From the NCBI GenBank assembly GCA_019685575.1, contig JABFQO010000008.1:1-64000 (forward strand): a stretch of DNA of 64,000 nt, in the 5' to 3' direction. This document shows, in pieces, positions 16,492 to 32,689 of this stretch. The translations under genes were made by a program, and so were the position numbers. Source of the DNA: Candidatus Bathyarchaeota archaeon A05DMB-4. GTDB taxonomy: Archaea; Thermoproteota; Bathyarchaeia; Bathyarchaeales; SOJC01. Each line of letters begins with the position of its first letter. Position 1 is the stretch's first letter. The notes beneath the pieces are model-generated. The model worked only from the letters and a program-made list of their open reading frames with translations, was not told where the DNA came from and searched no databases.

Positions 16492-16569
16492 GGGCGGGTA
16501 GATCAGCCTGGTATGATCGCCACGTTGGCATCGTGGAGGCCGCGGGTCCAAATCCCGCCCCGTCCACCA
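16492..16569 (+). tRNA. tRNA-Ala (GGC)
   Basis: Complete intron-less cloverleaf with encoded CCA. Acceptor GGGCGGG/CCCGTCC includes the G3-U70 wobble that identifies alanine tRNA. The anticodon arm CCACG-TTGGCAT-CGTGG gives GGC at 16527-16529, and the T arm is GCGGG-TCCAAAT-CCCGC. A repeat-family copy begins 40 bp downstream. Confidence 0.95.
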
Positions 16570-19034: not shown

Positions 19035-19100
19035 CCATAAAGTTTAAGGGTTGTTTGTGAGATTTTCAGTAAACAACAACGCGACACATGAGGGTAAATT

Positions 19101-19652
19101 TTGCCCAAAAAAGAATCTACCATCGAAGAGAAAAAAGCCGAAGTTCTCATGCACCTAAGAGGCTACAAAAAAATCGACCAAAAACGCCTCCCCGACGGCA
19201 TAACCACTTACACGACAAAAACAAAAACTGGCGACATCATCATCTACTGCATACCAGGGCAAGGCACGATTGGCGTGCAGTATATTAATAAACTTAAAAA
19301 AGTCATGAAAGACGAAAACCTCGAACGCGGCATAATCATCACCAGCGGACGTTACACACAGGCTGCCAAGTCGGCGGCCAGAAAAAGAGGCATCGAACTC
19401 ATTCCAAGAATGTTTCCGGCATTCAACCTTTTCGAGCATGTTATGGTGCCAAAACACGAAATAATCTCCGATGAGGAACGCCAGATGATTCTGCAAAAAT
19501 ACAAGGTTCAACCGTATCAACTGCCGTACATTCATGTTTCAGATCCCGCGGTGAAAGCCGTCGGCGCAAAACCGGGTGACATCGTGAAAATCACTCGTAA
19601 CAGCCAAACTGCGGGAAAATACTTTGCTTACAGGTACGTAGTTGAAGGCTAA
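19101..19652 (+). CDS. rpoH: Rpb5/RpoH-like RNA polymerase subunit with nuclease-fold N-terminal domain
   Basis: A 183-aa protein with a TTG start behind TGAGGGT. The C-terminal part (about 110-183) is the whole archaeal RpoH/Rpb5 assembly domain: EHVMVPKHEIISDEERQMI, QLPYIHVSDPAVKAVGAKPG, TAGKYFAYRYVV. Ordinary archaeal RpoH is only this domain, about 80 aa. The N-terminal part (about 10-105) resembles Mrr/Holliday-resolvase-type nuclease folds: TGDIIIYC, IGVQYINKLKKVM, GIIITSGRYTQAAKSAARKR. The expected E/QxK catalytic motif reads IPGQGTIG, so it is probably inactive. The arrangement matches the jaw-plus-assembly organisation of eukaryotic Rpb5. Confidence 0.88.
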   Translation: MPKKESTIEEKKAEVLMHLRGYKKIDQKRLPDGITTYTTKTKTGDIIIYCIPGQGTIGVQYINKLKKVMKDENLERGIIITSGRYTQAAKSAARKRGIELIPRMFPAFNLFEHVMVPKHEIISDEERQMILQKYKVQPYQLPYIHVSDPAVKAVGAKPGDIVKITRNSQTAGKYFAYRYVVEG

Positions 19653-21731: not shown

Positions 21732-22499
21732 CTATAGGAACTCGGGTAGGCACCGTTTATCCGTGACTGGATTGAAATCGGGTAACTCGTCCACTGTGAG
21801 AGGAAGCACTATCCGCGAGACCATGCCGTGCAAACTATAAGGCAACCGAATCAGTCGCATTCCACCGCTCGTGACCCATTCGTCGATGAGAAAACCTTCT
21901 TTCGTCAACTTCTTTGCTAATCTGCTTCTTTCCCGTCTCTTCCAGCCGAGAGTTTCTTCATCAAGCACGTGAATGTGAAAACCTCTGCCCGAATAAACGA
22001 TGCGTAAATTAGAAAACAACTGTTCCAGCCGTTTGTATAGTTTGGCGGTTTCCTCTTTCACCATTTTAAGTTCTGTTTCACAAAAGCCCAAGCCTTGATG
22101 TCTACGCATTTTGTCCTCAAGAGTGCCATGAATTGGGCATGTTAAGTTTTCCGGGTCAAGGTCGAAGGCTAATTCTTGCCCGACAACCTTGCCGTGAAGG
22201 TTGTAAAGGTTTCTATCGTAGTAGACGGATTCTGGTAGAAACTCGAGAACCTGTGCTTTCATGTCTTCTAGGTTCTGATAGTTTTCGATTAGAATAGTAG
22301 CGTCTGCATCCTCTGCGTATTCTCTGCGAAAAATGTGAGTGTGCCGTCCCATAATTACAGCGAAAACAACATGGCCTACGGATTCAAAGGGCGTTAGCCA
22401 CTCTTTTACTCGTCTTAAATCAAATTCTCGCCGATAAAAAAACTCACGTTCGGCAAGCGTTGCGTAACGCATGCCCTTAGGCAAAATATAACGGTGCAT
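21732..22499 (-). CDS. PriS-like archaeo-eukaryotic primase domain protein
   Basis: A 255-aa protein with the AEP-primase motifs: REFFYRREFD near the N-terminus, ELAFDLDPEN (metal-binding DxD), IVYSGRGFHIHVLDEE (SGRGxHxHxxD) and EWVTSGGMRLIRLPYSLHG. A C/H cluster (CPIHGTLEDKMRRH ... GFCE) sits where PriS has its zinc knuckle. It is shorter than typical archaeal PriS. It is either the compact small primase subunit or a PriS paralogue; the large subunit is not nearby. ATG 22499 has GGTGA 6 bases upstream and is preferred over 22517. Confidence 0.82.
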   Translation of the reverse strand: MHRYILPKGMRYATLAEREFFYRREFDLRRVKEWLTPFESVGHVVFAVIMGRHTHIFRREYAEDADATILIENYQNLEDMKAQVLEFLPESVYYDRNLYNLHGKVVGQELAFDLDPENLTCPIHGTLEDKMRRHQGLGFCETELKMVKEETAKLYKRLEQLFSNLRIVYSGRGFHIHVLDEETLGWKRRERSRLAKKLTKEGFLIDEWVTSGGMRLIRLPYSLHGMVSRIVLPLTVDELPDFNPVTDKRCLPEFL

Positions 22500-22565
22500 C
22501 TCTTCACCTTCAAACAAAACTCATACGGCTTCACAGATAATAAAGAGAACCCTTTTTTGGCAACG

Positions 22566-23243: not shown

Positions 23244-23642
23244 TTAGGGTTTAAAATAGCACCGTGGCCATTGTGGCCATCCTTCAGATTTGGCTTCTTC
23301 GAAGTCTATTGTTAGGCGCATTCCGATTTTGATTTTTTCATGCGGGATACCTTTGATCATTCCTGGCAAGTGTGCGCCGTTTTCGAGTTCTACTACGCCG
23401 ACAGCATATGGGGCTAGTGGTTGGAATTGTTCGGGGCATACGTGGATGATTGTGTATGTTAGTAGTTTTCCTTGTTTTGGGTTTTCTTTCCATGTTAAGT
23501 GTTTGGAGAGACATTTTGGGCATACTGGTCTTGGCGGTACGGTAACGTGTCCGCATTTGTTGCATTGAGCGCCCATGATTTTTCCTTCTTTTACGAACTT
23601 GTAGAAATTTTCAATAGTGAAAGCAACTGTTTCTTCTGTCAT
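23244..23642 (-). CDS. DUF35 Zn-ribbon/OB-fold protein, thiolase partner
   Basis: A 132-aa acyl-CoA-associated DUF35 protein. A rubredoxin-like zinc ribbon has Cys pairs CNKC (27-30) and CPKC (41-44). An OB fold follows with LLTYTIIHVCPEQF and PYAVGVVELENG. In archaea such proteins scaffold the acetoacetyl-CoA thiolase/HMG-CoA synthase complex of mevalonate synthesis or related Claisen enzymes. It sits 3 bp after the thiolase gene on the same strand, matching that arrangement; no HMG-CoA synthase is in the window. Confidence 0.92.
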   Translation of the reverse strand: MTEETVAFTIENFYKFVKEGKIMGAQCNKCGHVTVPPRPVCPKCLSKHLTWKENPKQGKLLTYTIIHVCPEQFQPLAPYAVGVVELENGAHLPGMIKGIPHEKIKIGMRLTIDFEEAKSEGWPQWPRCYFKP

Positions 23643-23645
23643 TTC

Positions 23646-24818
23646 TTAGCCCCTCCTAAAAATGTTGACCACGCCGGTTCCGCCCAACCCGCCTATGTTA
23701 TGCGTCAAGCCGATTTCGGCGCCTTTCACTTGTCGTCTTTCAGCTTGTTCGGTTAGCTGCAAATAAATTTCGTAGGCTTGCGCCGTGCCCGTGGCGCCGA
23801 CGGGGTGTCCTTTCGATTTCAATCCGCCGCTTGTACACACGGCTACCTTTCCGCCTATTTGGCTTTGTCCCTCTTCGATGAAACGTCCACCTTCGCCGGG
23901 TTTGCAGAAGCCGAGGTCTTCGTAGGCAACGATTTCTGCGATAGTGAAGCAATCATGCACTTCTGCGACGTCAACTTCCGAGGGGTCGATGCCCGCCATC
24001 TTGTATGCCTCTTGTGCTGCGGCTTTGCCTGCGTTTAGGCTTGTGAACTGGTCTCTTTCAAACAGTCCAATGGTGTCGCTTGCTTGTCCCGAGCCGATTA
24101 TATGCACCGGTGTATCGGTGTATTTTTTGGCGAGTTCGGGCTTGGCTAGAATGAGGCAACTGGCGCCATCGGTTATCAGTGAGCAGTCGTAAAGTTTAAG
24201 CGGCCACGCCACAACCCGTGAAGACAAAGCCTGCTCCATGGTGATTTCCTTCTGCATGTGCGCCTTAGGGTTCAGGGCTCCGTGGTGATGATTCTTTACC
24301 GCCACCATAGCCATCTGCTCTTCTTTTGTTCCATACTTGTGCATGTGCGCAGTGGCTACCATAGCAAACAAGCCTGGAAAGGTAAGGCCGTTCCATTGTT
24401 CAAAGAAGAAGTCTGAAGCCATGGCTAAATATTCCGTTACGTCAGCGGTAGCCCGATGAGTCATTTTCTCTACGCCCCCTACCATCACGATGTCGGCTAA
24501 GCCGGATAAAACAGCGAATATTCCGCATCGTATCGCAGTGGCGGAGGAACCGCACGCGCCTTCGGTTCGAAATGCTTGCACGGGTGTTATGCCTATCCAG
24601 TCTGCGATGGTTGGTCCTGTGTGGCCTTGGTGCTCGTAGGATTCGCCCATCATGCCTACAAAGAGTGCCTTTATGTCTCTTTTTGGGTCGAGGTTGGGGC
24701 ATCTTTCGTAGGCTTCGGTTGCGGCTTCCACGAAAAGTTCTCTTCCGAAAAGTCCGTCTCTCTTTCCGAATTTAGACATTCCCGCTGAGATTATGGAAAT
24801 GAGAGGTTTTCCCGACAT
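23646..24818 (-). CDS. Thiolase-family protein (acetyl-CoA acetyltransferase-like)
   Basis: A 390-aa archaeal SCP-x/thiolase-type enzyme. The nucleophilic Cys is present in RTEGACGSSATAI (C89). The catalytic His segments are EVHDCFTIAEI and KSKGHPVGATG. The C-terminal GGLGGTGVVNIF lacks the second Cys of bacterial degradative thiolases, as is usual in archaeal members. It likely catalyses CoA-dependent Claisen condensation or cleavage, together with the DUF35 protein encoded 3 bp downstream. Confidence 0.93.
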   Translation of the reverse strand: MSGKPLISIISAGMSKFGKRDGLFGRELFVEAATEAYERCPNLDPKRDIKALFVGMMGESYEHQGHTGPTIADWIGITPVQAFRTEGACGSSATAIRCGIFAVLSGLADIVMVGGVEKMTHRATADVTEYLAMASDFFFEQWNGLTFPGLFAMVATAHMHKYGTKEEQMAMVAVKNHHHGALNPKAHMQKEITMEQALSSRVVAWPLKLYDCSLITDGASCLILAKPELAKKYTDTPVHIIGSGQASDTIGLFERDQFTSLNAGKAAAQEAYKMAGIDPSEVDVAEVHDCFTIAEIVAYEDLGFCKPGEGGRFIEEGQSQIGGKVAVCTSGGLKSKGHPVGATGTAQAYEIYLQLTEQAERRQVKGAEIGLTHNIGGLGGTGVVNIFRRG

Positions 24819-30621: not shown

Positions 30622-30675
30622 TGCTCCTTAGCGTAACTATGTTTTCTTTCAATAAAAATAAAAATGGTGAAAAAC

Positions 30676-31977
30676 ATGGCGAATAAGAAAGTGGCGATTG
30701 TTGCTGGTGCTATTTCGCGGTTTGACAATCCGCGGCATACTTTGCAGGAGGAGATGTGCGCCGAAGCGGTGCGGATGATTTTGGATGATTTGCCGAACTT
30801 GGATTTGGGCACTTGGGTGAAGGAGCAGGACACGGCGGCGTGTTACTCGTATTTCAGCGACATTCTGGAACAGCAGCAGTGTATGCATTGGATTATCAAT
30901 GATTATTTGGGTTTGAGTGGTCTGCCTCAGTATCGTGTGGAGTCGGGCGGTGCAACGCCGATTGACGCAGTTGTGAACGCGGCTTTGTGGATTCGTTCGG
31001 GCTTGTTCAAGCAGGTGCTGGTGGTTGGTTGGGAGAAGATGAACGAGTTGCACATTCAGAAGGTCAACGAGGCTATTGCGATTGCGGGTGATACGGATTG
31101 GGATTTTGTCTCGGGCTTTACTTACAATGCTTTCTATGCGACGTTGGAAACGCGGCGTATGCACGTGTTCGGTGAAACTGAGGAGGATTTAGCCGAGGTT
31201 GCAGTTATGACGCATAACAATTCGTTGGACAACCCTTATGCGCAGTGGCCGGCTCAGCATGGGTTTGGTAAGATTACGGTGGACGACGTGTATAAGAGTC
31301 GTTTGATTAGTTGGCCTTACAGGCTTTACGAGTGTGCGATGACGAGTGAAGGCGCCAGTGCCTTGTTGCTTACGGATGCGGAGACGGCGCGGAAGTATAC
31401 GGACACGCCTGTTTGGATTAGCGGCGTTGGCTTCGGCAGCGACACTATGCGTCCAGGTGACCGCCCTGATAACCCAGCGTGGAAAGGACTGTTTCCTGAG
31501 GATGAGAAGCTTTGGCCAGGGCATGTTGAGCGTCCGTTGTCGCCTTATCCTGATTTGACGAACTTTGGTGCGTTCCGTACGGCTGCAAGGTTGGCTTACA
31601 AGGATGCGGGTATTCGGAATCCGCGCAAGGAGATTGACATGGTGATGGTGTTCGACCCGTATGCTGGTGTTGTGTTGGCGGGCTTGGAGGACATGGACTT
31701 TTGCAAGCGTGGCGAGGGAATGAAACTGCTTCGTGAGGGTGTGATTCAGCCTTGGGGTGATTTGCCGTGTCAGTTTAGCGGTTCTTTGACGGCGCAGGGT
31801 CACGCGGTGGGCTCCACGAGTATCGCTGAGGTGGTTCAAGTATACTGGCAGTTGAGTCAGCAGATTGGCAAAAAGTGGGGTGCACCGAAGCGTCAGATGA
31901 GCAAGGCGAGACGAGGCTTGATTCAAGGGCACGGCGGCACGGGCTGTCAAGCCGGCGTGGTGATTTTGGAGAGGTGA
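30676..31977 (+). CDS. Thiolase-like protein lacking the catalytic cysteine
   Basis: A 433-aa thiolase-fold protein (ATG 30676 has GGTG 6 bases upstream; ATG 30664 is also in frame). It aligns by motif with the window's other thiolase, but RTEGACGSSA is replaced by RVESGGATPIDA, so the nucleophilic Cys is absent. EVHDCFT is replaced by MVFDPYAG. The GH of LTAQGHAVGSTS is kept, and the C-terminus reads GHGGTGCQAGVV. It may be a non-catalytic partner or may use other chemistry on acyl-CoA or steroid-like substrates. A DUF35 gene follows 7 bp later. Confidence 0.88.
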   Translation: MANKKVAIVAGAISRFDNPRHTLQEEMCAEAVRMILDDLPNLDLGTWVKEQDTAACYSYFSDILEQQQCMHWIINDYLGLSGLPQYRVESGGATPIDAVVNAALWIRSGLFKQVLVVGWEKMNELHIQKVNEAIAIAGDTDWDFVSGFTYNAFYATLETRRMHVFGETEEDLAEVAVMTHNNSLDNPYAQWPAQHGFGKITVDDVYKSRLISWPYRLYECAMTSEGASALLLTDAETARKYTDTPVWISGVGFGSDTMRPGDRPDNPAWKGLFPEDEKLWPGHVERPLSPYPDLTNFGAFRTAARLAYKDAGIRNPRKEIDMVMVFDPYAGVVLAGLEDMDFCKRGEGMKLLREGVIQPWGDLPCQFSGSLTAQGHAVGSTSIAEVVQVYWQLSQQIGKKWGAPKRQMSKARRGLIQGHGGTGCQAGVVILER

Positions 31978-31984
31978 GATAAGA

Positions 31985-32689
31985 ATGGTCAAGATGGAGC
32001 AGCCTGGTCCTGAGAAGGTGATTAAACAGTCGGCGTACGATGAGAAGTGGTGGAACGATTGGGTCATGAAGGGTGGCTGGCGGCCTGAAGCTTGGAAGAT
32101 CATTGAGATGAAGGATGGCCCCACGTTGACTTCGTTGAAGACTGAGCGGTTCATGATAATTCATAGACCTCACGCGAACATGTTTAACCACAGTTATGGC
32201 AAGGTGTCAAGGTTTTTCGAGGGTTTGCTCGAAGGAAAATTGATGGGTACAAAGTGTCCAAAATGTGGGCTGGTGTATTGTCCGCCACGTGCGCATTGCT
32301 TTAACCCGAAGTGCCGTTTGGCCGAGACTACTTGGGTGGAACTGCCGAAGAAGGGCGTGGTGCACAGCTACACGATTATGGCTATTGCGTGGCCTTCGAT
32401 GGCGCATCTGCAGCCGTTGGTGGGCGCTATGGTGCGTGTTGACGGGACGAATACTTGTTTGCCCATGACGATGCGGGACATCGACCCTGAGAAGGTGAAC
32501 ATCGGGCTCAAGGTGAACATTCACATTAGCAAGGATGCGAAGGGCGATTTGCTGGACGTGTATGCTACGCCGGCGGAAGAACCGAAGGCGCCGAAACGGA
32601 CAGAAGCGGAACTGAAACGGTTCAGAGAAGACATGGACAAAACACGCGAATGGGTCAAAAAAACCTTCGGAACAAAAACAAACAAATAA
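31985..32689 (+). CDS. DUF35 Zn-ribbon/OB-fold protein with N-terminal extension
   Basis: A 234-aa DUF35 protein. An extension of about 70 residues rich in Trp and charge (YDEKWWNDWVMKGGWRPEAW) precedes the zinc ribbon, CPKCGLVYCPPRAHC plus CxxC-like FNPKC. The OB fold follows (VHSYTIMAIAWPSMAHLQP, VGAMVRVDG). It is encoded directly after the thiolase-like gene and is its probable partner. Compared with the 23244 paralogue it is about 100 aa longer, suggesting a different complex geometry. Confidence 0.9.
   Translation: MVKMEQPGPEKVIKQSAYDEKWWNDWVMKGGWRPEAWKIIEMKDGPTLTSLKTERFMIIHRPHANMFNHSYGKVSRFFEGLLEGKLMGTKCPKCGLVYCPPRAHCFNPKCRLAETTWVELPKKGVVHSYTIMAIAWPSMAHLQPLVGAMVRVDGTNTCLPMTMRDIDPEKVNIGLKVNIHISKDAKGDLLDVYATPAEEPKAPKRTEAELKRFREDMDKTREWVKKTFGTKTNK

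Follow-up and report, generated by a model that had tools for sequence, protein, structure and literature searches.

Published accounts treat the jaw of RNA polymerase subunit Rpb5 as specific to eukaryotes and as what sets Rpb5 apart from archaeal Rpo5 (PMC2675907, PMC3906176, PMC6690254), and the inactive restriction-enzyme fold of the jaw has long been known (PMC551604, PMC1185551). The window analyzed here, a 64-kb stretch of archaeal DNA, carries an rpoH (rpo5) gene whose product bears an additional domain ahead of the RpoH part. The locus therefore raises the question of whether an archaeal polymerase can have a jaw as well, and whether such a jaw would share its origin with that of Rpb5. 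We found no prior description of a jaw-bearing archaeal RpoH in the literature searched, the scope of which did not extend to preprints and most subscription papers. Passages on Rpo6 and Rpo8 forms in Bathyarchaeota, from a survey of small archaeal subunits published in 2026, refer to an N-terminal domain for eukaryotic Rpb5 only (PMC13257274). As far as could be checked, the jaw-bearing form is undescribed.

Architecture of the Long RpoH

The long rpoH gene (19101–19652, + strand, coordinates including the stop codon) starts with TTG and encodes 183 aa, the length that an earlier, sequence-only reading of this DNA had given. The sequence GAGGG (19090–19094, +), which on reading is a probable Shine-Dalgarno site, lies 6 nt 5′ of the start, and an in-frame TAA is found two codons 5′ of the TTG. 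The RpoH/Rpb5 C-terminal assembly domain occupies residues 108–180 (19422–19640, +) and is complete, with PF01191 matched over positions 1–73 of 73 (Pfam, E = 3e-31). Residues 1–107 (19101–19421, +) form a jaw-like domain, as delimited by Pfam, AlphaFold2, and Foldseek. Pfam detects PF04471 (Mrr_cat) over residues 14–102 (E = 7.2e-11; 42.7 bits against a cut-off of 21) and PF22722 (“inactive restriction endonuclease”) over residues 26–97 (E = 6e-7), and the AlphaFold2 model predicts the order helix, three strands, helix, strand, helix, strand of an inactive Mrr-type PD-(D/E)XK fold. The proposal that a full RpoH at the C terminus is preceded by an Mrr-type nuclease-like domain of ∼105 aa is hence borne out by the PF01191 match for the one part, and by the Mrr_cat match together with the fold matches described below for the other. 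The canonical RpoH/Rpo5 subunits of Thermococcus, Sulfolobus, and Methanocaldococcus are 78–84 residues long, jawless, and usually encoded 5′ of rpoB, which the long gene is not; the C-domain of the long form is nevertheless complete and shows 44–57% identity to most of the solved subunits in Foldseek alignments.

No Second RpoH in the Source Genome

The source genome comprises 1.53 Mb on 20 contigs and is 94.46% complete. A search of this 94.46%-complete sequence for a second PF01191 match found none, the gene at 19101–19652 being the only one. The rpoB gene lies on a different contig and is followed by one fused rpoA, L30e, and nusA; there is no rpoH beside it and nothing RpoH-like 5′ of it. 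A separate short rpoH, in the genome or next to rpoB, would speak against the sequence-only reading. Such a gene was looked for in both places and none was found, so the reading is not refuted on this point. Judging from the gene content, the long rpoH product would be the only RpoH/Rpo5 of the cell, and most likely the sole Rpo5 of its polymerase.

The rpoA of the source genome is a single fused gene (A′ + A″, 1290 aa; L033:10360–14232), as in eukaryotes. For Asgard genomes, the str/L30e cluster has been reported with a conserved core of rpoA1-rpoA2-L30e-nusA-S12, which does not include rpoH (PMC10833476). Neither Rpo8 nor archaeal AmoA was found in the source genome; elsewhere in the phylum, AmoA occurs in family f29 and Rpo8 in family f42.

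Loss of the Nuclease Active Site

Alignment places T35 (19203–19205, +) at the site of the metal-binding Asp of Mrr and Y49-C50-I51 (19245–19253, +) at that of the catalytic (E/Q)xK, so that both elements are lost. The degenerate active site suggested earlier is thus confirmed as a loss, though not in its location: it had been put at IPGQGTIG, and the residues replacing (E/Q)xK lie just before that stretch. The catalytic Lys is present in 0 of 68 relatives and the metal-binding Asp in only 6 of the 68, and on these counts an active nuclease was rejected. Mrr_cat and PF22722 are matched by all of the 27 N-domains tested. As judged from these alignments, the N-domain is a catalytically dead Mrr-type PD-(D/E)XK domain. 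It is under purifying selection in most close pairs (e.g., dN of 0.06–0.12 vs dS of 0.8–1.6), with a dN/dS somewhat above that of the C-domain; for a small number of pairs, divergence is too low or the sites are saturated.

Fold and sequence family are held in common with Mrr-type and type IV restriction enzymes and with the PD-(D/E)XK domains of EndoMS/NucS. Unlike the Mrr-type nucleases, the archaeal N-domains have lost the catalytic Lys (all of them) and the Asp (nearly all), and they are fused to a polymerase subunit. An inactive Mrr-like domain is also common to the long RpoH and PF22722 (NA-iREase1, NACHT-associated inactive restriction endonuclease); that family is named for its association with NACHT, whereas the archaeal domain is fused to RpoH.

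Similarity to the Rpb5 Jaw and to Mrr

A single-sequence phmmer search of the PDB aligns residues 26–181 in one piece with residues 46–205 of Arabidopsis Rpb5, which covers both domains. When a profile of the N-domain only is used, the first seven PDB matches are eukaryotic Rpb5 (best E = 1.2e-4). In hhalign comparisons with five Rpb5 jaws, the N-domain gives a probability of 88.7–92% and a score of 38.8, as compared to 11.1 ± 2.3 (maximum 17.6) for 60 column-shuffled control profiles. The N-domain aligns with stand-alone Mrr at 97%, and the Rpb5 jaw aligned directly with Mrr gives only 1–2%. The link to the jaw is strongest for the order of the source genome (families f1–f9), at 90% and at 83–94% with nine-sequence subsets; it is weak, 4–13%, for f25–f27, f22, f17, and the stand-alone relatives. 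In profile comparison, then, the N-domain is seen to bridge the Rpb5 jaw and Mrr, and it is the only sampled group that does so. The long RpoH would in this way connect, at the sequence level, the jaw with the Mrr-type nucleases, a link that had been missing. None of the 27 N-domains has Pfam Rpb5_N among its matches up to E = 10 with the HMMER filters on.

Template-free AlphaFold2 modeling of the whole protein yields a pLDDT of 88.6, and modeling of the N-domain alone one of 91.5, values to be read in the knowledge that Rpb5 structures were included in the training of AlphaFold. Foldseek searches of the PDB with the whole model return Rpb5, eukaryotic or from ASFV, as the first 33 matches, mostly over ∼200 columns, with TMq of 0.63–0.79 and E of 1e-14 to 1e-9. 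Archaeal RpoH matches in the same search through the C-domain only (TMq ≤0.39), and giant-virus Rpb5 tops the whole-model search of a viral library. When only the N-domain is searched, Rpb5 ranks just behind EndoMS and MspJI. The fold is therefore that of the superfamily, and the likeness specific to Rpb5 resides in the two-domain arrangement and the sequence. A predicted N-terminal fold unrelated to the jaw and to nucleases had been named beforehand as evidence against the sequence-only reading; Foldseek instead matches the domain to both.

The long RpoH has the same domain order as eukaryotic Rpb5/RPABC1 and its NCLDV and ASFV counterparts, a dead PD-(D/E)XK jaw followed by the assembly domain, and resembles eukaryotic Rpb5 further in its whole-protein fold, a detectable sequence similarity of the jaw, and the length of the linker. 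The archaeal jaw is, however, shorter (∼105 residues vs 131–141) and is without the segment around yeast residues 38–60, the Pfam Rpb5_N match, and the proline of the TPSA element. We do not class the long RpoH as a member of Rpb5, because Rpb5_N is not matched and shared descent is only one possibility. It is a jaw-bearing variant of archaeal RpoH, real and widespread, which from its sequence and predicted structure in all probability works like Rpb5.

Proposed Function of the Jaw-Like Domain

In Rpb5, the C-domain binds the largest subunit and the jaw touches DNA 15–20 nt ahead through the TPSA element, and P86 of yeast Rpb5 has also been proposed as a DNA contact (PMC6690254). Residues T86-Q87-A88-A89-K90 of the long RpoH (19356–19370, +) align with the TPSA element, and T56-I57-G58-V59 (19266–19277, +) align with the P86 loop of the yeast protein (EPSVGV). 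The position of the TPSA threonine is Thr in 88% of relatives; within the element, T and [SA]-A are conserved and P is not, and a T-x-x-A-K element is typical of Mrr proteins too. The Sulfolobus polymerase has no jaw, and Rpo13 uses the groove that this leaves; in eukaryotes, the jaw fills part of that locus (PMC2675907). In Pyrococcus, the fusion of a yeast jaw to RpoH proved unstable (PMC3906176).

We infer incorporation into the polymerase, a position for the jaw, a contact with DNA, and an effect on transcription along the following lines. The C-domain of the long RpoH would dock on Rpo1, as it does in all archaeal and eukaryotic polymerases, which would put the dead N-domain at the downstream end of the DNA cleft, where the eukaryotic Rpb5 jaw sits and which is in part the place of Rpo13 in Sulfolobus. 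There it would hold the incoming duplex ∼15–20 bp ahead of the active site, with contacts provided by the loop T86–K90 and by the loop before helix 59–71, and this grip on the DNA would aid initiation and processivity without cutting. The best explanation of the data, and one that we consider quite probable, is a sole Rpo5 whose dead-nuclease jaw holds on to downstream DNA but does not cut it.

Instead, the N-domain might serve mainly in docking or regulation, with transcription factors, chromatin, or repair proteins as its partners. Such a role would suit both the binding of factors by the Rpb5 jaw (PMC3906176, PMC13257274) and the higher rate of evolution of the N-domain, relative to the C-domain, in most close pairs. 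Against it, the N-domain loops that are most conserved align with those of Rpb5 that face DNA, and we think it unlikely that docking takes the place of the DNA grip. Far more improbable still, to the point of being negligible, is a fusion that exists only as a MAG chimera or as a spurious 5′ extension of an ordinary rpoH. The source genome is indeed a draft assembly in 20 contigs, but the identical fusion occurs in dozens of independent genomes, some of them single-contig, and dN is far under dS for most close pairs. An assembly artifact was rejected because the same architecture is seen in 56 genomes of the class and the N-domain is under purifying selection. Should the proposed gripping jaw prove true, an archaeal polymerase with a working jaw would provide a simple one-polymerase system for testing jaw function.

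Distribution and Operon Context

The sample consisted of 398 genomes of the phylum, which is taken as GTDB Thermoproteota on account of the AmoA- and Rpo8-bearing genomes that it contains, and 323 of them lie outside the class; the latter is most likely Bathyarchaeia, an assignment that we infer, and has at least 257 species. Near-full matches to the 182-position model occur, within this sample, in 56 genomes of the class. No long rpoH was found among the 323 sampled genomes outside it, 311 of which have an RpoH match. The outside-class RpoH matches listed add no more than short extensions to the C-domain and score <125 bits, as compared to >170 bits for the weakest complete long forms seen. 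Within the class, families f1–f9, f17, f20, f22, and f25–f27 have the long form, and families f10–f15, f18, f19, f21, f23, and f24 the short one.

Every short rpoH of the class that was checked and for which rpoB was located lies directly 5′ of rpoB, whereas the long gene is beside rpoB in none of the 40 long-form genomes of the RpoB-tree sample. Gain of the jaw therefore goes with departure from the rpoB operon, which constitutes a second, clean evolutionary pattern. The surroundings of the 82 distinct long rpoH loci that were read differ between families: the gene lies 5′ of a HAD hydrolase gene in f1, and has other neighbors in f5, f6, and f27.

Two or three long copies with different N-domains are present in genomes G042, G057, G112, and G237 (L039/L040, L041/L042, L043/L044, and L154–L156). 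These may be paralogues for alternative polymerases or mixtures introduced by binning. In G145, a further long copy is broken by a stop codon (L157). Class genomes G138, G198, G127, and G242, at 94–98% completeness, are without any RpoH match, probably owing to assembly gaps.

Origin of the Jaw

The sequence-only reading suggested that the gene may preserve an intermediate in Rpb5 evolution. The jaw-like fold, the domain order, and the sequence likeness to Rpb5 hold up, but the intermediate status does not follow for a form that is restricted, in this phylum, to one class and scattered on the RpoB tree; on the sequences compared here it is possible. The long forms appear in several places on that tree (f1–f9; f25–f27; f17; f20; f22), which requires at least five changes. 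In the C-domain tree, a single clade of all long forms is not rejected (AU p = 0.70), with 76 columns that resolve little. The f22 protein has a different N-domain and a C-domain that groups with short forms, and its long rpoH seems to have arisen by a fusion of its own. Rpb5 and the f22 N-domain come out together in the N-domain tree; this grouping was flagged by the program as long branches meeting, and we set it aside on that account.

In f6/f3 and f22 (L022, L028–L030, L040, L109, and L110), there is a second N-domain type, distinguished by a four-residue insertion (SGxVGV-like). This type is more like the stand-alone relatives than the main type is, and in f6/f3 it may have been fused separately. 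The stand-alone relatives constitute an inactive Mrr-like family with a Cys-rich C-terminal half (L146–L149, L151–L153, L119, L143, and L150:3239–3811), related to the RpoH N-domain with E of 1e-10 to 1e-21 and present also in short-RpoH lineages (L146, L148, and L149). This family is a possible donor of the jaw. It is implausible that a short rpoH was regained exactly 5′ of rpoB, which therefore points to an old long paralogue with differential loss, to transfer between lineages, or to repeated fusion.

The resemblance to Rpb5 could have come about in parallel, by fusion of an inactive Mrr-like domain to RpoH within the class, probably more than once and independently of the eukaryotic jaw, which would derive from a related domain; the two would be alike in working without sharing a jaw-bearing ancestor. 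We give such an origin about an even chance. It is in keeping with the absence of the long form from all 323 sampled phylum genomes outside the class, the number of changes on the RpoB tree, the divergent N-domain of f22 and the placement of its C-domain with short forms, the resemblance of the SGxVGV-type N-domain of f6/f3 to the stand-alone inactive relatives, and the occurrence of possible donor proteins even in short-form lineages. It sits less easily with the N-domain of the f1–f9 order, which is nearer to the jaw than either the stand-alone relatives (8%) or Mrr (0.7%), and remains so when profiles of equal size are compared, with the agreement in domain order and linker length, and with the single clade of long C-domains that the AU test leaves standing.

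Alternatively, Rpb5 and the long RpoH would both derive from a jaw-bearing RpoH older than eukaryotes, present in a shared ancestor or passed from one archaeal lineage to another. The profile and structural similarity along the whole protein argues for this, as does the fact that no sampled group other than the archaeal domain links the jaw to Mrr; the restricted distribution argues against it, and in the N-domain tree the branches are too long and the columns too few to place Rpb5. We entertain common descent only tentatively. Confinement to one class of the phylum, scatter on the RpoB tree, and possible separate fusions of the N-domain make a parallel origin at least as likely, and the separate look of f22 together with the second N-domain type in f6/f3 shifts the odds toward parallel fusion and away from common descent. 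It is accordingly doubtful, though conceivable, that the Rpb5 jaw is pre-eukaryotic and arose in archaea through fusion of a dead Mrr-like domain with RpoH in a protein ancestral to Rpb5 and the long RpoH alike. Whether by descent or in parallel, a defense-type nuclease domain can turn into part of a polymerase, and the origin of the eukaryotic jaw becomes testable.

Other Features of the Window

The window begins with a tRNA-Gln gene (1–74, −), and a tRNA-Ala gene is located at 16492–16569 (+). The match of a 261-aa protein, encoded at 21732–22517 (−), to the DNA primase small-subunit family is partial (E = 5e-7). Finally, two gene pairs, at 23244–24818 and 30664–32689, resemble a thiolase together with a Zn-ribbon/OB-fold (DUF35-like) protein, as read from the translations alone.
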